Shown in pieces: positions 13,819-58,687 of a DNA stretch of 64,000 nt (the stretch's first letter is position 1; each line of letters starts with the position of its first letter). The position numbers and the translations under genes were made by a program. The notes under the pieces are model-generated. The model did not search any database. It was not told the origin of the DNA and worked only from the letters and a program-made list of their open reading frames with translations. The stretch comes from Charina bottae (lineage: Eukaryota; Chordata; Lepidosauria; Squamata; Charinaidae): the NCBI GenBank assembly GCA_023362775.1, contig JALMGJ010000004.1:83783798-83847797 (forward strand), written 5' to 3'.

Positions 13819-14812
13819 AAGAAACCTGTATGTGGGTCAAGAATCAACAGTTAGAACCGGACATGGAACAACCAACTGGTTCAAAATTGGGAAAGGAGTA
13901 TGACAAGACTGTATATTATCACCCTGCTTATTTAACTTATATGCAGAGTACATCATGAGAGATGCTGGGCTGGATGAATCACAAGCCGGAGTTAAGATTG
14001 CCGGGAGAAATATCAACAACCTCAGATATGCAGATGATACCACCCTAATGGCAGAAAGTGAAGAGGAACTAAAGAGCCTCTTGATGAGGGTGAAAGAGGA
14101 GAGTGCAAAAGCTGGCTTGAAATTCAACATTAAAAAAACTCAGATCATGGCATCTGGTCCCATCACTTCCTGACAAATAGAAGGGGAAGAAATGAAAGCA
14201 GTGACAGATTTTATTTTCTTGGGCTCCAAGATCACCGCAGATGGTGACTGCAGCCATGAAATTAAAAGACGCTTACTCCTTGGGAGGAAGGCTATGGCAA
14301 ACCTAGACAGCATATTAAAAAACAAGAACATCACCTTGCCGACAAAGGTCCGTATAGTTAAAGCTATGGTTTTTCCAGTAGTAATGTATGGCTGTGAGAG
14401 TTGGACCATAAGGAAGGCTGAGCACTGAAGAATTGATGCTTTTGAGCTGTGGTGCTGGAGAAGACTCTTAAGAGTCCCTTGGAGTGCACAGAGGTCAAAT
14501 CAGTCAATCCTAAAGGAAATCAACCCTGACTGCTCATTGGAAGGACAGATACTGAAGCTGAAGCTCAAATACTTTGGCCACCTAATGCGAAGAGAGGACT
14601 CACTGGAAAAGACCCTGATGCTGGGAAAGACTGAAGGCAAAAGGAGAAGGGGACGGCAGAGGATGAGATGGTTAGATAGCATCACCGATGTAACGAAAAT
14701 GAATTTGAGTAAACTCTGGGAGACAGTGGAGGACAGGAAGGCCTGGCGTGCTATGGTCCTTGAGGTCATGAAGAGTCGGACATGACTAAATGACTGAACA
14801 ACAACAAAGCCC
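13819..14812 (+). mobile_element. BovB LINE copy A (RTE clade), 5'-truncated, with stops
   Basis: Encodes the second half of BovB RT. After a broken TGA where other copies read GVRQGC come SPCLFNLYAEYIM, NNLRYADDTTLM (catalytic YADD), LGSKITADGDCSHEIKRR, PVVMYGCESWT and LEGQILKLKLKYFGHLMRRE. Stops interrupt it near 14172 (a Trp codon turned TGA) and 14428 (an Arg CGA turned TGA), typical of CpG decay after insertion. It ends with GAGTCGGACATGACTAAATG then AACAACAAC. No target duplication was recognised. It abuts the minus-strand Penelope piece. Confidence 0.95.
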
Positions 14813-15042: not shown

Positions 15043-15672
15043 CTAAGTCCCTTTATCATCTAAAGGAGGATCGTTAAGATTACCCTGCTGCTGTTGAGCT
15101 TGCGAAATGGTCTTAATCTTCCTAGGCACAGAAGACAAAGCAGGAAGGAAGATAGGGGAAAGGTTGTGCCTGAGGCCCCCAACTCTATTCAAGGAAGGAT
15201 TTTCCAAGTTGGCATAAATGGATTCCTTGACCCCTCTCTCAAACCACCTATCTTCTCTGTCTAAAATGTGAACATTAATGTCCTCAAATGAGTGTCCTTT
15301 TTCCTTTAGATGAAGATAAACTGCTGACTCTGGTCCTGTGTTGTTACTTCTCCTGTGTTGGGCCATCCTCCTGTACAAAGGTTGTTTGGTTTCTCCAATG
15401 TAGAGTTCAGAGCACTCCTCACTGCACTGGATTGCATACACTACTTTGCTTTCCTTGTGTTTTGGAGTTTGATCTTTGGGGTGTACAAGCCTCTGTCTCA
15501 GTGTGTTGGTGGGTTTGAAATATACAGGTATGTGGTGTTTGCCAAATATCCGTTTTATCTTTTCAGACACGCCAGCCATGTAAGGAATGACCAGGTTCTT
15601 CCGTTTACTCTGAGTCTCATCCCTATCTGTCGCTGTTTTAGGTCTGGTAGACTTAGACTTAGACTGTTCCAC
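15043..15672 (-). pseudogene. Penelope-like GIY-YIG endonuclease region (209 codons open, truncated)
   Basis: The frame begins inside the element, so the Met is incidental. Around residues 75-95 is YAIQCSEECSELYIGETKQPLYRRMAQHR: the GIY-like and YIG motifs with a downstream Arg, as in Penelope-type GIY-YIG nucleases, which nick DNA for insertion. A His (LKEKGHSF) and Glu (RGVKESIYA) follow in the usual order. Cys at positions 80 and 84 could suit the zinc-finger-like part reported in this group. The frame is uninterrupted to its natural stop despite loss of the RT domain, suggesting a fairly recent truncated copy. Confidence 0.85.
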
Positions 15673-15740
15673 CTGGATGACTGAGAACCTTCATCAACAT
15701 TTAACTTGTGGCTTTTTCCCCTTGCCATACAAATTTAGAT

Positions 15741-18385: not shown

Positions 18386-18420
18386 AAGGGTCTGAGTGCA
18401 GGGAGCATCCCTGAGATGGG

Positions 18421-19983
18421 ATGCATCCCAACATACTACAACGTATTTGCAAGACAGAAGCTCTCTCACCTAGAGTATACGGACTCCCCAAAATCCACAA
18501 AGACTCTATCCCACTTAGACCCATTGTAAGTGCCATTGGCTCCCCGACATATGAATTATCCAAACATTTGGCAACCCTTTTACAGACCCACATCGGACAG
18601 ACTCCATCCCACATCAAAGACTCAGGACACTTCATCAACAAAATCAGCACCCTAAAACTCAACCACACAGACAAACTGGTCAGCTTTGACGTGGTCTCCC
18701 TGTTTACCAAGGTGCCAGTAAGGGACACCCTGGCACTCATCAAGCAAATCTTCCCAGAAGACATTACAGCTTTATTTCAACACTGCCTAACAACTAGTTA
18801 CTTTCAATGGGAAAATGAGTTCTACGAACAGATGGATGGCATTGCCATGGGAAGCCCCCTGAGCCCAGTCATAGCAAACTTTTACATGGAACACTTTGAA
18901 AAACAGGCTTTGGAATCGGCACCCATTACACCAACAGTCTGGTTCCGGTTCGTGGATGACACCTTCGCAATTTGGAGTCATACTGAAGAAGAACTGGAGA
19001 CATTTCTGGACCACCTAAACGGCATCCACCCCAATATACAATTCACTATGGAAAAAGAAACTGATGGCAAACTTCCATTTTTAGATACACTGGTCATACG
19101 CAATCCGGACCTCAAACTAGGACACAAAGTATACAGAAAACCCACCCATACAGACCGGTATCTACACAAAAATTCCAATCACCACCCACGACAAAAGAGA
19201 GGCATGATCAAAACCTTGGTGGATCGTGCTAATCGAAACTGTGAAACCCAATTTCTCAACAATGAACTTAACCATCTGAATTGGGTCCTACAGGCAAATG
19301 GCTATTCCAAGAATGAAATAAAAAGAGCCATCAAACCAAGAGAACAACATCCAACTGAAGAAAAACAGCCCCCCACAAACAAAGTATTCCTGCCCTACAT
19401 CAAAGGAGTCACTGACCGCATGGGAAAACTGATGGAAAAACACAACTTTCAAACAGTCTTCAGACCCACCAGAAAAATACAACAAATGCTAAAATCAGCA
19501 AAAGACAAAAGGGACCCCCGCACCGCTGCAGGAGTATACCGCATACCATGCAGCTGTGGACAAGTATACATCGGAACCACAAAACGAAGCATTCACACCA
19601 GGATAAAAGTACACGAAAGACACTGCAGACTACAGGAACCGGAAAAATCTTCAGTAGCTGAACATGCTCTCAAGCAAACGGGACACAAAATCCTATTTGA
19701 AAACACAGAAATACTGGACAACACCAAAAGCCACTACACCAGATTATATAGAGAAGCCATTGAAATTCACAAACACCAGCACAGTTACAATAAAAAAGAA
19801 GAAAGTTTAAAAATTAGCAAAACCTGGCTACCAGTCCTGAAAAACACAGCCTGCAAAAGGTCAACGAACTCAGTCCAACCACCAGGACATGGGAATACTT
19901 CTCACAATGAACATGCTAATCACGCTCATCAGCCACTCGTTAACATTTCAACACAACAAAAAACCCCACCTAATCTCCTATAA
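18421..19983 (+). CDS. Penelope-like RT with GIY-YIG endonuclease (5'-truncated frame)
   Basis: The frame is open upstream, so Met-1 is only the first in-frame ATG. RT landmarks are: RVYGLPKIHK near residue 18, LVSFDVVSLFTKVP near 82-95 (first catalytic Asp), MDGIAMGSPLSPVIANFYMEHFE near 137-160, and FRFVDDTFAIW near 172-182, an FVDD version of the catalytic YxDD box. LPFLDTLV near 215 follows. The GIY-YIG part near 370-385 reads GVYRIPC, CGQVYIGTTKRS. The downstream REAIEI segment holds the expected catalytic Glu. Such proteins prime reverse transcription at nicked chromosomal DNA. Loss of the N-terminus makes autonomous mobility unlikely. The subfamily could be Neptune- or Poseidon-like; I cannot decide. 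Confidence 0.9.
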   Translation: MHPNILQRICKTEALSPRVYGLPKIHKDSIPLRPIVSAIGSPTYELSKHLATLLQTHIGQTPSHIKDSGHFINKISTLKLNHTDKLVSFDVVSLFTKVPVRDTLALIKQIFPEDITALFQHCLTTSYFQWENEFYEQMDGIAMGSPLSPVIANFYMEHFEKQALESAPITPTVWFRFVDDTFAIWSHTEEELETFLDHLNGIHPNIQFTMEKETDGKLPFLDTLVIRNPDLKLGHKVYRKPTHTDRYLHKNSNHHPRQKRGMIKTLVDRANRNCETQFLNNELNHLNWVLQANGYSKNEIKRAIKPREQHPTEEKQPPTNKVFLPYIKGVTDRMGKLMEKHNFQTVFRPTRKIQQMLKSAKDKRDPRTAAGVYRIPCSCGQVYIGTTKRSIHTRIKVHERHCRLQEPEKSSVAEHALKQTGHKILFENTEILDNTKSHYTRLYREAIEIHKHQHSYNKKEESLKISKTWLPVLKNTACKRSTNSVQPPGHGNTSHNEHANHAHQPLVNISTQQKTPPNLL

Positions 19984-25748: not shown

Positions 25749-26222
25749 ATGTATATGAACCGAGAACTACCAGAAGTGCAAGCTGGGTTTCGAAGAGGCA
25801 GAGGAACTAGAGACCAGATTGCCAACATTTGCTGGATCATGGAAAAAGCAAGAGAGTTCCAGAAAAACATCTACTTCTGCTTCATTGACTACGCTAAAGC
25901 CTTTGATTGTGTGGATCACAACAAACTGTGGCAAATTCTTAAAGAGATGGGAGTACCAGACCACCTTACCTGTCTTCTGAGAAACCTGTATGCGGGACAA
26001 GAAGCAACAGATAGAACCGGACATGGAACAACTGACTGGTTCAAAATTGGGAAAGGAGTACGACAAGGCTGTATATTATCACCCTGCTTATTTAACTTAT
26101 ATGCAGAGTACATCATGAGAAATGCCGGGCTGGATGAATCACAAGCCGGAGTTAAGATTGCCGGGAGAAATATCAACCGCCCAGAGTTCCCTTGCGGGGA
26201 GATGGAGCGGTATATAAATTGA
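25749..26222 (+). pseudogene. BovB RT, N-terminal part (157 codons, ends in the L2 insertion)
   Basis: Open frame from the 5' truncation to the nested L2 tail. It includes RT motifs for template binding and the first catalytic Asp (FIDYAKAFDCVDH), plus GVRQGCILSPCLFNLYAEYIM. Its last residues (RPEFPCGEMERYIN) come from the inserted L2 tail, not from BovB. It cannot make a full RT because the YADD region is downstream of the interruption. Confidence 0.9.
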
Positions 26223-26244
26223 AACATAAATAAATAAATAAATA
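26178..26244 (+). mobile_element. 67-bp L2-type 3' tail nested in BovB
   Basis: CGCCCAGAGTTCCC, then GGGGAGATGGAGCGGTATA, then AAATAAATAAATAAATAA interrupts what is uninterrupted ATATCAACAACCTCA in BovB copy D. It is the minimal 3' end of the L2 family, or of a SINE sharing it, inserted with a duplication of only about 3-4 bp (CAAC). Confidence 0.88.
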
Positions 26245-26420
26245 AACAACCTCAGATTTGCAGACAATACCACCCTAATGGCAGAAAGTGAAGAGGAACT
26301 AAAGAGCCTCTTGATGAGGGTGAAAGAGGAGAGTGCAAAAGCTGGCTTGAAACTCAACATTAAAAAAACTCAGATCATGGCATCTGGTCCCATCACTTCC
26401 TGCAAATAGAAGGGGAAGAA

Positions 26421-26978
26421 ATGGAAGCAGTGACAGATTTTATTTTCTTGGGCTCCAAGATCACCGCAGATGGTGACTGCAGCCATGAAATTAAAAGATG
26501 CTTGCTCCTTGGGAGGAAAGCTATGGCAAACCTAGACAGCATATTAAAAAGCAGAGACATCACCTTGCCGACAAAGGTCCGTATAGTTAAAGCTATGGTT
26601 TTTCCAGTAGTAATGTATGGCTGTGAGAGTTGGACCATAAGGAAGGCTGAGCGCCGAAGAATTGTTGCTTTTGAACTGTGGTGCTGGAGAAGACTCTTAA
26701 GAGTCCCTTGGAGTGCATTGGAAGGACAGATACTGAAGCTGAAGCTCAAATACTTTGGCCACCTAATCCGAAGAGAGGACTCACTGGAAAAGACCCTGAT
26801 GCTGGGAAAGACTGAAGGCAAAAGGAGAAGGGGACGGCAGAGGATGATATGGTTAGATAGCATCACCGATGTAATGAACATGAATTTGAGTAAACTCTGG
26901 GAGACAGTGGAGGACAGGAAGGCCTGGCGTGCTATGGTCCATGAGGTCACAAAGAGTCGGACACGACTAAACGACTGA
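26421..26978 (+). pseudogene. BovB RT, C-terminal part (185 codons)
   Basis: Reads EAVTDFIFLGSKITADGDC, KAMVFPVVMYGCESWTIRKAE, AFELWCWRRLLRVPW, then directly SALEGQILKLKLKYFGHLIRRE, because the segment corresponding to RRSNQSILKEISPDYS of copy D is deleted in frame. It ends KSRTRLND near the AAC tail. It lacks the catalytic core and is non-functional alone. Confidence 0.9.
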
Positions 26979-27000
26979 ACAACAACAACAACAACAACAA

Positions 27001-38612: not shown

Positions 38613-38623
38613 AGTAATTATTA

Positions 38624-39826
38624 ACTACCAGAAGTGCAAGCTGGATTTCGAAGCGGCAGAGGAACTAGAGATCAGATTGCCAACCTTTGCTGGATCATGA
38701 AAAAAGCAAGAGAGTTCCAGAAAAACATCTACTTCTGCTTCATTGACTATGCTAAAGCCTTTGATTGTGTGGATCACAACAAACTGTGGCAAATTCTTAA
38801 AGAGATGAGAGTACCAGACCACCTTACCTGTCTCCCGAGAAACCTGTATGCGGGTCAAGAAGCAACAGTTAGAAACGGACATGAAACAACCGATTGGTTC
38901 AAAATTGGGAAAGGAGTATGACAAGGCTGTATATTATCACCCTGCTTATTTAACTTATATGCAGAGTACATCATGAGAAATGCTGGGCTGGATGAATCAC
39001 AAGCCAGAGTTAAGATTGCCGGGAGAAATATCAACAACCTCACATAGGCAGATGATACCACCCTAATGGCAGAAAGTGAAGAGGAACTAAAGAGCCTCTT
39101 GATGAGGGTGAAAGAGGAGAGTGCAAAAGCTGGCTTGAAACTCAACATTAAAAAAACTCAGATCATGGCATCTGGTCCCATCACTTCCTGGCAAATAGAA
39201 GGGGAAGAAATGGAAGCAGTGACAGATTTTATTTTCTTGGGCTCCAAGATCACCGCAGACGGTGACTGCAGCCATGAAATTAAAAGACGCTTGTTCCTTG
39301 GGAGGAAAGCTATGGCAAACCTAGACAGCATATTAAAAAGCAGAGACATCACCTTGCCGACAAAGGTCCGTATAGTTAAAGCTATGGTTTTCCCAGTAGT
39401 AATGTATGGCTGTAAGAGTTGGACCATAAGGAAGGCTGAGCGCCGAAGAATTGATGCTTTCGAACTGTGGTGCTGGAGAAGACTCTTGAGAGTCCCTTGG
39501 ACTGCAAGAAGGTCAAATCAGTCAATCCTAAAGGAAATCAGCCCTGACTACTCATTGGAAGGACAGATACTGAAGCTGAAGCTCAAATACTATGGCCACC
39601 TAATGCGAAGAGAGGTCTCACTAGAAGAGACCATGATGCTGGGAAAGACTGAAGGCAAAAGGAGAAGGGGACGGCAGAGGATGAGATGGTTTGAAAGCAT
39701 CACCAATGTAATGAACATGAATTTGAGTAAACTCCGGGAGACAGTGGAGGACAGGAAGGCCTGGCGTGCTATGGTCCATGAGGTCATGAAGAGTCAGACA
39801 TGACTAAACGACTGAAGAACAACAAC
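38624..39826 (+). mobile_element. BovB LINE copy D (1203 bp) with 11-bp target duplication
   Basis: AGTAATTATTA flanks both ends (38613-38623 and 39827-39837), defining an insertion of 1203 bp that is 5'-truncated inside the RT. It reads QAGFRSGRGTRDQIANLCW, CFIDYAKAFDCVDHNKLW, then a TGA in GVRQGC (CGA to TGA), NLTxADDTTLM with a TAG replacing the Tyr codon of YADD, and a long open C-terminal part. It ends GACTAAACGACTGAAGAACAACAAC. The intact duplication indicates relatively recent insertion into the CR1-like element. Confidence 0.96.
39066..39803 (+). pseudogene. BovB RT C-terminal half (245 codons open)
   Basis: Begins MAESEEELKSLLMRVKEESAKAG just after the catalytic box. It continues TSWQIEGEEMEAVTDFIFLGSKITADGDC, KAMVFPVVMYGCKSWTIRKAERRRIDAFELWCWRRLLRVPWTARRSNQSILKEI, and ends with RRGRQRMRWFESITNVMNMNLSKLRETVEDRKAWRAM. 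It is the longest BovB frame here. Stops upstream (38922 and at the YADD) separate it from the polymerase core. Confidence 0.92.
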
Positions 39827-40854: not shown

Positions 40855-42126
40855 CAGGGATTGGCAACCTGTGGTCCGTGGCCCACTGGTGGTCTGCGGG
40901 CTCTTAGGAAGTGTCACGGTGGCTCAGCGAGTTAAACCGCTGAGCCGTTAGACTGCCGACCATAAGGTTGGCAGTTCGAAACCGCGTGGCGAGGTGAGCT
41001 CTCGTCACTAGCCCCGGCTTCTGTCCACCCAACAGTTTGAAAGTGGAATGCAAGTACATAAATTGGGTACCACTCACGTGGGTCAATTTGCTGGCATCCA
41101 TTCGGAGGGTCGTCCTTGAACCAAGAAGACCTGGCGAATCCCGACAATGGCGGCGGAGGACGATGGATACTGAACAACAACTTCCTGGACGTCAGCAGCC
41201 GGCACGGAGCGAGGCATTCTGGGGCATGTAGTCCAATGCCTGCAGCTGAAGAGTCGGTTCCTTCACCTCCTTCCTATCGTGCGGTAACATTGTGTAATAT
41301 ATATATGATTGTATAATATATGAATTTACATGTATGTAAGCCGCCTAGAGCCCTCCATTAGGGAGGGGATAGGCGGGGTATAAATAAGTTAAAATAAAAA
41401 ATAAATACAAATAAAAGTGGTCCACAGGGTGAGCTGAAGCAGCTGATTGGTGGGGGACCAGAAGGGGAAACACCTCCACCTATCAGCGCGCAACAAAGAA
41501 GGGCGGAGGCGGGCCAAGGAGCACCCCTGCCAATCAGCCTCCTCTCGCGGTGGCAGCGTGCATGCCCAGCTGAGGTGAGGCTTGTTGCTTCCCTGCCGCT
41601 CAGTGCAGCGTTTTTGCTCCCTGTGTTTTTTTCGGCCCCTACCGGGTAGCTCCGGCATGCCTCCGCTTCCCTACCGCACAGCTGATCAGCGCTCTGGTGT
41701 GCCTCCACTTCCTGCCGCACAGCTGATAAGCGCTCCAGTGGGCCTCTGCTTCCCTCCTGCACAGCTGATCGGCATGGAAATTTTCCACCCGGGGAACCCC
41801 CCCACCGTCACTTTTTGCAGTGATCTGAGGCTTTTTTGCCTTGGATCAAAAGTGGGGGGGAGGAAATGTCCATCCCACACCCCGCCAGGGTGCCCCTTCG
41901 AAAGGGCAGGCTTTGAGGACCCCGAAAATGCCCTCGCTGCCAGGAAAAAACTCTGCACGGAGCGGCAGGCCTGCAAACCCCGCCCCTCCATCCAATTGGC
42001 TGCTGCCCGCAAGCCCCGCCCCCCATCCCCCCGATTGGCTGCCACCCACAAACCCCAACCCCAGGTCCTTGGAAAAAAATTTGCGAGGGAAGTGGTCCCT
42101 GGTGCCAAAAAGGTTGCCAACCCCTG
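40855..42126. mobile_element. Non-autonomous hAT transposon with a nested SINE
   Basis: Left terminus CAGGGATTGGCAACCTGTGG and right terminus AAAAAGGTTGCCAACCCCTG are inverted copies. TGCTAAGT (40847-40854) and TGTTAAGT (42127-42134) flank it, an 8-bp duplication with one change. The right part (41860-42090) is GC-rich and has ATTGG/CCGCCCC motifs repeated (41980-42045), like the end of the palindromic hAT at 55518. No transposase is recognisable in the remaining ~800 bp, so it is non-autonomous. A SINE inserted at about 40916-41400. Confidence 0.88.
40916..41400 (+). mobile_element. tRNA-derived SINE with L2-like 3' tail, nested in hAT
   Basis: Head: GGTGGCTCAGCGAGTTAAAC (box A region) and GGCAGTTCGAAAC (box B, near 40969). 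Body: CACTAGCCCCGGCTTCTGTC and TTGGGTACCACTCACG, closely related to the SINE at 5750-6083. The 3' part differs: instead of the BovB-like end it has GTAAGCCGCCTAGAGCCC, GGGGATAGGCGGGGTATAAA and an AAAATAAA tail, as L2 has. It is therefore a chimeric SINE class with another LINE partner. Confidence 0.82.
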
Positions 42127-55509: not shown

Positions 55510-55661
55510 GCCCAGTTCAAGGGTCGGAAATGGCGGCTCGCGAGCCACATGCGGCTCTTTGGCCCCTTGAGTGTGGCTCTTCCGCAGCTGAACTCACCCC
55601 GCCCCTTCCACGTGATTGGATCCCGCCCCCAAACTCTTACGCTCTTACGCGCGCTCGCTCT

Positions 55662-58357
55662 CGCTGTCCAAGGCCGGGGCCACCCGCAGCCGCCCACACC
55701 TCGCGCACAGCCCGCGGGGCTCTCTGCCGCTCCCTTCAACGGAGGAGGGACCGGCGTGCCTTGGGAGCTGCTGCTGGCGGCATGTCTGGGCGAGGCGCGC
55801 GGGCGGAGCTGCCCGTCTGGCACTTGGGCGCTCCCGAGCCTCTTCCCTTCTCCCTCGCCACGTTCGGGCGTTGAGGCCAGGCAAAGCCGGGCGGTCGCGC
55901 AGGGGTGAGGCGAGGAGTCCCGCTCCTGCGCCTACCGCCACATCCGTCCGTTCCCGGCCTCTCTCCCCATATCCGGCGGGTGCCCATGCCAGAATCCCCG
56001 CGACCCGGAGGCAGCGACTGCTCGGAGGGCCCCAGCGAGAAGAGGCGCGTGATCCCCGGTGGATCCCTTCGAGGGGCCGCGGGGCTTCCCCGCTTTCCTC
56101 CCAAGGAGGCCTCGACGGCGCACCCTCCCGCCCCATCAATCCCCCCACCCCGCCGTTGGGCGTCAGAGGCTGAAAGGATGTGGCAGGAACGGCCCTGGAA
56201 AGCGGGGCCTGCGGAGCGCCACCTTTGGGGAGGAGGGTCCAGCCGGCGAGCAATGGCGGCACTGGAGTTTTCGCCGGAGCGCTGTCTGTCGGGAGAGAAA
56301 AGCAGCCACCACACAGGCCCGCTTAAAAAACCACCACCCCGAAACCGCTTTCGAGCCGCCTCTCCGGAGGGTCCCTGCGGTCCCGCCGGGTGCACCCCCC
56401 CACCCCGCCGTTCGGCGTCCTCTCCCCCCGCTAACCCGAGCCCTGCGGCAGCCGGGGGAAGCTGAGCCAGGCGGGGGTGCAGCGGGCCCAGCGGCATGCT
56501 GAGGGCGAAGAGCCGCCTGCTCTCCCCTTGGCCGCCTCCGGTCGCTACAGTCGCCCCGCCGGAACGGAGCCTGGCTTGGCTCCCCCGGCCACCGCAGGGC
56601 TCGGATTAGCGGGGGGAGAGGACACCGAACGGCGGGGTGGGGGGGTTAACCCGGCGGGACCGCAGGGACAATCCGGAGAGGCGGCTCGAAAGCGGTTTCG
56701 GGGTGGTTGTTTTTTAAGCGGGCCTGTGCGGTGGCTGCTTTTCTCTCCCCACAGACAGCGCGGGCGGGCGGGTCCTCTGGAAGGAGGCCGGCCGGAGTTC
56801 TGCTTGCAGTGGACGAGTTGCTGCTGGGCCGAGCAGATGCTTTTGAGACCTAACGGCGGGGTTACATCGGGACCGAGTCCGGCCTATCCCCGGTCTGTGT
56901 CGCGTTAATGCCGCCCCCTTTCCCACCTGGGAGGCCAGCTTGCAGCGCAAACGGCAGTCGCTTACTGAGCGAGTGCATTTTAAAATCTGCTTAAGACTGA
57001 AACTGCGCTTTTCCGGCCTTCCTTTTTCAAAGAGGGAGAAGTGCGGGGGGGGGGGGTGGTTAAACAGATTTTAAAATGCACTCGCTCAGTAAGCGACTGC
57101 CGTTTGCGCTGCAAGCTGGCCTCCCAGGTGGGAAAGGGGGCGGCATTAACGCGACACAGACCGGGGATAGGCCGGACTCGGTCCCGATGTAACCCCGCCG
57201 TTAGGTCTCAAAAGCATCTGCTCGGTCCAGCAGCAACTCGTCCGCTGCAAGCAGAACTCCGGCCGGCCTCCTTCCAGAGGACCCGCCCGCCCGCGCTGTC
57301 TGTGGGGAGAGAAAAGCAGCCACCGCACAGGCCCGCTTAAAAAACCACCACCCTGAAACCGCTTTCGAGCCGCCTCTCCGGAGGGTCCCTGCGGTCCCGC
57401 CGGGTGCATCCCCCCACCCCGCCGTTCGGTGTCCTCTCCCCCCGCTAACCCGAGCCCTGCGGTGGCCGGGGGAGCCAGGCCAGGCTCCGTTCCGGCGGGG
57501 CGACTGTAGCGACCGGAGGCGGCCAAGGGGAGAGCAGGCGGCTCTTCGCCCTCAGCGCGCTGCTGGGCCTGCTGCACCCCCGCCTGGCTCGGCTTCCCCC
57601 GGCCGCCGCAGGGCTCGGGTTAGCGGGGGGAGAGGACGCCAAACGGCGGGGTGGGGGGGTGCACCCGGCGGGACCGCAGGGGCCCTCCGGAGAGGCGGCT
57701 CGAAAGCGGTTTCGGGGTGGTGGTTTTTTAAGCGGGCCTGTGCGGTGGCTGCTTTTCTCTCCCGACAGACAGTGCTCCGGCGAAAACTCCGGTACCGCCA
57801 TTGCTCGCCGGCTGGACCCTCTTCCCCAAAGGTGGCGCTCCGCAGGCCCCGCTTTCCAGGGCCGTTCCTGCCACATCCTTTCAGCCTCTGACGCCCAACG
57901 GCGGGGTGGGGGGATTGATGGGGCGGGAGGGTGCGCCGTCGAGGCCTCCTTGGGAGGAAAGCGGGGAAGCCCCGCGGCCCCTCGAAGGGATCCACCGGGG
58001 ATCACGCGCCTCTTCTCGCTGGGGCCCTCCGAGCAGTCGCTGCCTCCGGGTCGCGGGGATTCTGGCATGGGCACCCGCCGGATATGGGGAGAGAGGCCGG
58101 GAACGGACGGATGTGGCGGTAGGCGCAGGAGCGGGACTCCTCGCCTCGCCCCTGCGCGACCGCCCGGCTTTGCCTGGCCTCAATGCCCGAACGTGGCGAG
58201 GGAGAAGGGAAGAGGCTCGGGAGCACCCAAGTGCCAGACGGGCAGCTCCGCCCGCGCGCCTCGCCCAGACATGCCGCCAGCAGCAGCTCCCAAGGCACGC
58301 CGGTCCCTCCTCCGTCGAAGGGAGCGGCAGAGAGGGTGGCCCCAGCCTTGGAGAGCT
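55662..58357. repeat. Giant inverted repeat (about 1.3-kb arms, 75-nt spacer) inside the hAT
   Basis: Left arm 55662-56989 and right arm 57065-58357 are reverse complements, with sparse substitutions and about 45 bp extra in the left arm near 55685-55730. At the centre, GCGAGTGCATTTTAAAATCTG faces CAGATTTTAAAATGCACTCGC. Each arm repeats a block B inversely: 56279-56460 against 56587-56762, and 57293-57470 against 57597-57775. Mirrored open frames (for example 56477-56908 and 57577-57146) come from this symmetry and are not separate genes. Confidence 0.9.
56737..56757 (+). promoter_or_regulatory. Splice-acceptor-like site in palindrome block B
   Basis: A pyrimidine-rich CTTTTCTCTCCCCACAG followed by ACAG looks like a 3' splice site. 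The matching site in the other B copy near 57770 reads CTCTCCCGACAG. Function is inference. Confidence 0.25.
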
Positions 58358-58395
58358 GGGGTGCAGGGGGACGGGAGCGTCGCCGGCAGCCCGCG

Positions 58396-58420
58396 AGGAC
58401 CAGCCATGGAAGGTGAGCGA
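58396..58420 (+). promoter_or_regulatory. Kozak-like ATG directly followed by a splice-donor consensus
   Basis: ACCAGCCATGGAAG (ATG at 58406) is followed by GTGAGC (58413). A short first coding exon ending seven bases after the start codon in a CpG-rich region would look like this. It lies in the unique right part of the hAT, outside the palindrome. Confidence 0.35.
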
Positions 58421-58453
58421 GGACCGGGGTGGCCGGCCAAGCGCAGCGCAGCC

Positions 58454-58612
58454 CTTCCACGCGATTGGATCCCGCCCCCAAACCCCGCCCCTTCCACGCG
58501 ATTGGATCCCGCCCCCAAACCCCGCCCCCTTCCACGCGATTGGCTCCTGCCCGCAAACCTCGCCCCCTTCCACGCGATTGGCCCCCGCCCGCAAACCCCG
58601 CCCCCTGGCTCT
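58454..58612 (+). repeat. Four subterminal ~37-38-bp repeats with CCAAT and GC boxes
   Basis: CTTCCACGCGATTGG starts at 58454, 58491, 58529 and 58567, each followed by CCCGCCC-type sequence. ATTGG is an inverted CCAAT box and CCCGCCC a GC box. One related unit (CTTCCACGTGATTGG) lies near the left end at about 55605. Repeated subterminal motifs are usual transposase-binding sites in hAT elements, and these could also act as promoter elements. Confidence 0.85.
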
Positions 58613-58687
58613 CGAGCACTTAAAAATGTGCACAAGCATACCAAAATGGCTCTCGGCTCAAAAAGTTTGCCGACCCTTGGCCCAGTT

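Follow-up and report, generated by a model that had tools for sequence, protein, structure and literature searches.

The window, a stretch of 64,000 nucleotides from Charina bottae, contains a transposable element of 3162 bp with 68.9% G+C and a CpG ratio of 0.84 (Table 1). Its limits, inverted termini and perfect 8-bp target duplication were reread from the sequence and are as the original prediction had claimed, and the bases beyond the duplication differ between the left and right sides of the site. Outer palindrome arms of ~1.3 kb had been proposed; these measure 1275 nt and are 98% complementary. Each arm also holds the second palindrome described there, with one block present four times, although the claimed block and core lengths of 178 and 126 bp were off by a few bases from the measured 181 and 121 nt.

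Table 1. Parts of the element at the window locus (positions in the window)
Feature	Position	Strand	Remarks
Left target-site duplication GCCCAGTT	55510-55517	.	Perfect pair with 58680-58687
Left terminal inverted repeat CAAGGGTCGG	55518-55527	+	10 bp
Block L, left unique end	55518-55719	+	First 63-117 bp common to elements with other interiors
Left outer arm, blocks A B C B' D	55720-56994	+	1275 nt
Inner palindrome of left arm	56279-56761	.	B 56279-56459, core C 56460-56580, B' 56581-56761; arms of 181 nt, 94%, around 121 nt
Block D, direct repeat	56762-56994	+	Would hold the joint of an 885-bp loss from the 4.05-kb form
Central spacer S	56995-57059	+	65 nt
Right outer arm, blocks D' B C' B' A'	57060-58334	-	Full length in 37/37 complete copies
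Inner palindrome of right arm	57293-57775	.	Arms 57293-57473/57595-57775, 181 nt, 96%, around 121 nt
Block R, right unique end	58335-58679	+
Subterminal repeat of 38 bp	58452-58606	+	4.1 copies; CCAAT-box and GC-box like by eye
Right terminal inverted repeat, complement of CAAGGGTCGG	58670-58679	-
Right target-site duplication GCCCAGTT	58680-58687	.	Pairs with 55510-55517

Self-repeats cover 55% (direct) and 86% (inverted) of a 4.04-kb copy of the element, while none of 30 control stretches of 1760 bp, drawn at random from the rest of the window, exceeded 10% in either orientation; chance is thereby ruled out as the source of the structure. Seventeen open frames of at least 100 aa overlap the window element, as is expected of DNA so rich in G+C, and Rfam returned no matches in the window at gathering scores. 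Subterminal 38-bp repeats like those at the right end of the element also stand in two other hAT-like relics. One of these, at window positions 41420-42126, ends in GGTTGCCAACCCCTG and carries a similar repeat at 41974-42065 (80%). The other is a separate 420-bp hAT-like element (L034:5045-5464) with ends CAGGGGTCCCCAACC / GGTTGGGGGACCCTG, duplication CTTTAACC and about three such repeats (about 80%).

The source genome (1.80 Gb, 278 contigs) was searched with the element, and the best 38 of 4837 first-look candidates were scored. From the 37 places fetched, 36 complete copies were obtained, giving 37 with the window copy; L034 was left out, as it is without a left end. Because the copies come from the best 38 candidates, the mix of forms described below is skewed towards the query. 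All 37 complete copies are flanked by perfect 8-bp target duplications, and 35 of them have TA at duplication positions 4-5, where the window copy has CA. The preference is symmetric, with CTAG commonest at positions 3-6, the C and G weaker than the TA, and A/T outside. In 35/37 copies the left arm matches the window arm over at least 609 bp and adjoins a full right arm, the exceptions being L044 (141 bp) and L045. The structure thus recurs at independent sites of this genome, which bears out the suggestion of a fold-back hAT element; it exists in many copies, and a separate target duplication flanks each of them. What had been called a family is, however, a subfamily, its interior being one of many found between the same ends. 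Assignment to the fold-back class is based on the 1275-nt inverted arms around a 65-nt loop, and on 19 copies of 4.00-4.05 kb that lie at different sites with perfect duplications. We conclude that the fold-back element is very young and was recently mobile.

Divergence between copies averages about 0.9% per arm (30 left and 37 right arms), and the left and right arms within one copy differ by 1.3% on average. Among the arm changes, 238 are found in three or fewer arms, 152 of them CpG transitions; at non-CpG sites these rare changes amount to 0.00096 per base. If a neutral rate near 1e-9 per year is assumed, the burst would be about a million years old. When the majority sequence of the left arms is set against that of the right arms, 13 of 1279 alignment columns differ, with alleles common to many copies, and the palindrome therefore predates the burst. 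A second lineage comprises eight copies, in which the alleles of the two arms are almost identical. Private mutations present in both arms were considered as proof of arm-to-arm conversion and set aside, as there were 0-3 per copy among 30 copies, too few for the purpose.

Membership in hAT is supported by the termini and target duplications of what is predicted to be a trans-mobilised element, namely the 8-bp duplications in 37/37 copies and short terminal inverted repeats of 10 bp (CAAGGGTCGG). Seven open frames of the window copy, compared with Pfam, gave no match to the dimerisation domain of hAT transposases (PF05699) or to any other family. The TA typical of Buster elements stands in the duplications of 35/37 copies and in 17/17 left flanks read from related elements. 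MITEs are short elements, under about 600 bp, a size that the window element at 3162 bp and its copies at 2073-6310 bp exceed. A target duplication of the form nnnTAnnn is reported for Buster elements in the available part of the source (PMC3517528). Mar and other Buster-type hAT elements share this 8-bp duplication with the fold-back element; Mar is a MITE, unlike the fold-back element, and the word stem 'palindrom' occurs 0 times in the text at hand (PMC3517528).

The left end of the element also occurs with interiors other than its own. With up to three mismatches, the terminal 29 bp gave 3521 + 3457 = 6978 genome matches, whereas a reversed control gave 0. About 100 of the 6978 places counted were listed, and 17 of these (places 1-10 and 13-19, with 11 and 12 skipped), all exact matches in the first 7 Mb of contig C1, were read 1.9 kb inward. 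The fold-back interior was found at 0/17 and other G+C-rich interiors (60-74% G+C) at 17/17, of about nine types by our own count of shared interiors; the fold-back copies L010 and L022 stand at two other places of the list. We therefore regard the fold-back form as a subfamily with young copies inside a large group with common ends. Repetition is frequent among the 17 relatives: direct repeats extend over at least 30% of the length in nine, inverted repeats over at least 10% in nine (0/30 control stretches of the window exceeded 10%), and nine have modules in common with the fold-back form. Of seven relatives examined for this, five (L046, L052, L054, L060 and L062) have parts of C and B' single, adjoining and unmirrored, though L060 and L062 show inverted repeats of their own over 29% and 16% of their length. 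A right-end match lay within 1.9 kb in 10/17 relatives, and nine of these ten have a perfect duplication, eight as cut and L062 once its shortened end had been set by eye; L058 has a right end in reach and no perfect duplication. Four elements with the same left end (L048, L055, L057 and L059) carry an array of ~205-bp tandem repeats, and L048, L055 and L057 match each other's complement at about 67%.

These interiors could be captured 5' ends of host genes, which would make the elements Pack-hATs and the group a large exon-shuffling system. We consider this unlikely, though it has more in its favor than the other alternatives below: the G+C content of the 17 relatives fits it, as does an open frame near the left end that is of protein-like make-up in our judgement and recurs in L046, L047 and L052, and hAT elements make up 208 of the 370 animal Pack-TIRs reported in the accessible text of one survey (PMC8277862). 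The same text gives only four cases of multicopy Pack-TIRs in 100 genomes (PMC8277862). Against capture, the protein-like frame was without a match in Pfam (three frames), in PDB (one frame) and in a protein database (one frame, in a search that took in only proteins of about 64-203 aa), and seven open frames of the window element gave zero matches to Pfam families. A broader proposal, which we put forward tentatively, is that the hAT ends serve as a chassis for thousands of elements, in which G+C-rich interiors are taken up, shuffled from one element to another and afterwards multiplied as tandem and mirror blocks; nested palindromes and tandem arrays would arise repeatedly and spread by transposition. 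The group would then be an ongoing factory of complex repeats in one genome, possibly fed by the 5' ends of host genes.

The fold-back copies were divided into blocks L, A, B, C, D, S and R. By our own grouping the 37 fall into 15 size classes spanning 2.07-6.31 kb, with 19 copies at 4.00-4.05 kb, four at 3.16 kb including the window copy, two at 3.28 kb and 12 single sizes. One of them, L041, is a near-complete simple palindrome (3240 of 3788 bp). Direct repeats within the 4.04-kb copy L013 are spaced 885, 767 and 1130 bp, and these spacings recur as differences between size classes. Alignment of L013 with the window copy leaves one 885-base gap, and the 885 bp lie between two 231-bp direct repeats of the longer copy. 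Once they are removed from L013, the window copy is 99.2% identical to it with 3 gap bases, and the four 3.16-kb copies are 99.2-99.6% identical with 3 gap bases each. Likewise, the two 3.28-kb copies match L013 minus 767 bp at 99.4-99.5%, the 6.31-kb copy matches L013 plus 2 x 1130 bp at 99.3% with 18 gap bases, and L042 matches L043 minus 1670 bp at 98.5% with 31 gap bases. On these alignments the best reading of the window copy is that it derives by deletion from the 4.05-kb form, and it is not itself the commonest form; its neat second-order symmetry would be partly a by-product of internal recombination, given the 885-bp loss between direct repeats.

Whether this loss took place once or repeatedly was addressed with a tree of 25 main-group copies, in which good support is limited to 1 of 22 inner branches. 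The AU test rejected a single clade for the 3.16-kb copies, four in number (p 3.8e-5), and a single origin of the two 3.28-kb copies stays compatible with the tree (AU p 0.73). Because the 3.16-kb group was named after an earlier tree had been seen and so few branches are well supported, the former result lends support to recurrent deletion behind the 3.16-kb copies and is not proof of it; sequence exchange between copies could mimic several origins. The opposite direction of change, in which a 3.16-kb master gave rise by tandem gain to the forms of 4.05 kb and more, appears improbable. Tandem gains probably do occur, as in the 6.31-kb and 5.49-kb copies, and the tree is without an outgroup, so that it cannot root the change between 3.16 and 4.05 kb. 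Copies of 4.00-4.05 kb nevertheless make up 19 of the 37 against four of 3.16 kb, and the latter are scattered among the 4.05-kb copies in the tree, with weak branch support. In addition, an inner module of smaller size (B 2-87, C 82-121) is present both in the 4.05-kb form and in L040, L041, L042 and L043 of the second lineage, and is absent from the 3.16-kb form.

Taken as a whole, the locus most probably holds a copy of a young, non-autonomous, Buster-type hAT element, belonging to a fold-back subfamily whose interior has been reshaped by its own repeats within a larger group with common ends. Three observations underlie this explanation: repeated insertion with 8-bp duplications, forms linked by near-exact loss or gain between direct repeats, and single-copy relatives of a mirrored module. 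Movement would be by cut and paste, with a Buster-type transposase presumably supplied in trans. The fold-back interior probably came from the inverted duplication of modules, among them one that related elements carry in single copy. As it is full of direct and inverted repeats, the interior would keep changing by recombination or template slippage between them, probably during repair of the excision gap or during replication, and a 4.00-4.05-kb form would have given rise to the window copy by losing 885 bp between two copies of block D. Change of this kind through excision-gap repair or replication has been proposed for Galileo (PMC4168063) and for multicopy Pack-TIRs (PMC8277862), according to the parts of these papers available to us.

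One pattern counts against this explanation, as recombination between repeats does not predict it. Deletions in six copies (L012, L036, L038, L039, L044 and L045) sit in the left arm and centre, with none in the right arm, and a left-arm deletion bias is possible. The joints are not all independent, since L039, L040 and L045 have one in common. L044 and L045 were also considered as ancestors that had never had a left arm; this was ruled out, as their left parts hold pieces of the left arm joined across deletions.

Cruciforms or long double-stranded RNA had been suggested in the original prediction. That the palindrome has been retained because one of these is of use to the element, such as a cruciform that aids excision, is an idea to which we give little credence. 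In silico, a transcript of the + strand is predicted to fold at -3394 kcal/mol with 1259 arm-arm pairs, whereas two shuffled versions reach -1570 and -1556 kcal/mol. Such a low energy follows from the palindrome itself, and perfect duplications also flank L044 and L045, in which the left arm is small or missing, so that the arm may be dispensable for movement unless it was lost after insertion. Least credible by far is an assembly artefact in which a collapsed or mirrored contig end produced the palindrome: long palindromes are known to cause misassembly, but the structure is repeated at many sites on contigs 3.5-255 Mb long, always with a perfect duplication of its own, and the arms differ in majority allele at 13 sites, as those of a mirrored copy would not.

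The closest known systems, as described in the available portions of the papers concerned, are Galileo and a hAT-derived element of Atlantic cod, and neither is identical to the fold-back element. Galileo, a member of the P superfamily in Drosophila, likewise has long and variable inverted arms, into which internal sequence and tandem repeats are drawn, and many non-autonomous copies of differing length (PMC4168063). It differs in superfamily and in target site (7-8 bp, GTATTAC, compared with 8 bp and a central TA here), and the portion of its description at hand contains no nested second palindrome (PMC4168063). The cod elements gadMor-hAT-1784 and -8043 are hAT-derived, without an open frame, and have inverted arms of ~600 bp built of 167-169-bp tandem units (PMC12368964). 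Their arms are shorter than those described here, and they stand at inversion breakpoints on chromosomes 1 and 7 and are read by the authors, in the text available, as old copies (PMC12368964); the present element, in contrast, has dozens of young copies, perfect duplications and a two-level palindrome. Pack-TIRs and Pack-hATs resemble the wider group in having transposon ends around foreign interiors, with multicopy cases spread by transposition (PMC8277862, in part). A Pack-TIR holds a segment of a host gene; for the elements described here such a segment is a possibility, with no Pfam, PDB or protein-database match among the frames compared. The FB elements of Drosophila, such as FB4, have repetitive inverted arms (~700 bp) and are frequently rearranged, but FB4 and MULE duplications are 9-10 bp rather than 8 bp, according to the same partial source (PMC8277862). 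No account of this fold-back element was found in the titles and abstract openings of the literature searched, which took in few subscription journals and neither Repbase nor Dfam.

Long palindromes are generally considered unstable. Despite that supposed instability, a young and numerous transposon in this genome carries nested palindromes on the kilobase scale. Its copies, of which dozens are nearly identical, have known termini and differ in inner order, and they constitute a natural experiment on the growth and shrinkage of palindromes and tandem blocks: for several of the sizes seen, recombination between named direct repeats predicts the length to within a few bases. With about 7000 left ends in common and many interiors, the wider group would allow tests of where complex G+C-rich repeats originate.

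Other mobile DNA was also observed in the window. Open frames at 18415-19983 and 15043-15690 contain reverse transcriptase (PF00078) and GIY-YIG (PF01541) domains, and we take these frames to be Penelope-like. Three copies of the 3' part of a LINE, presumably BovB-like, lie at 13820-14807, 25765-26988 and 38623-39825; they are mostly 95-98% identical, and one frame among them gave a reverse transcriptase match below the cut-off.
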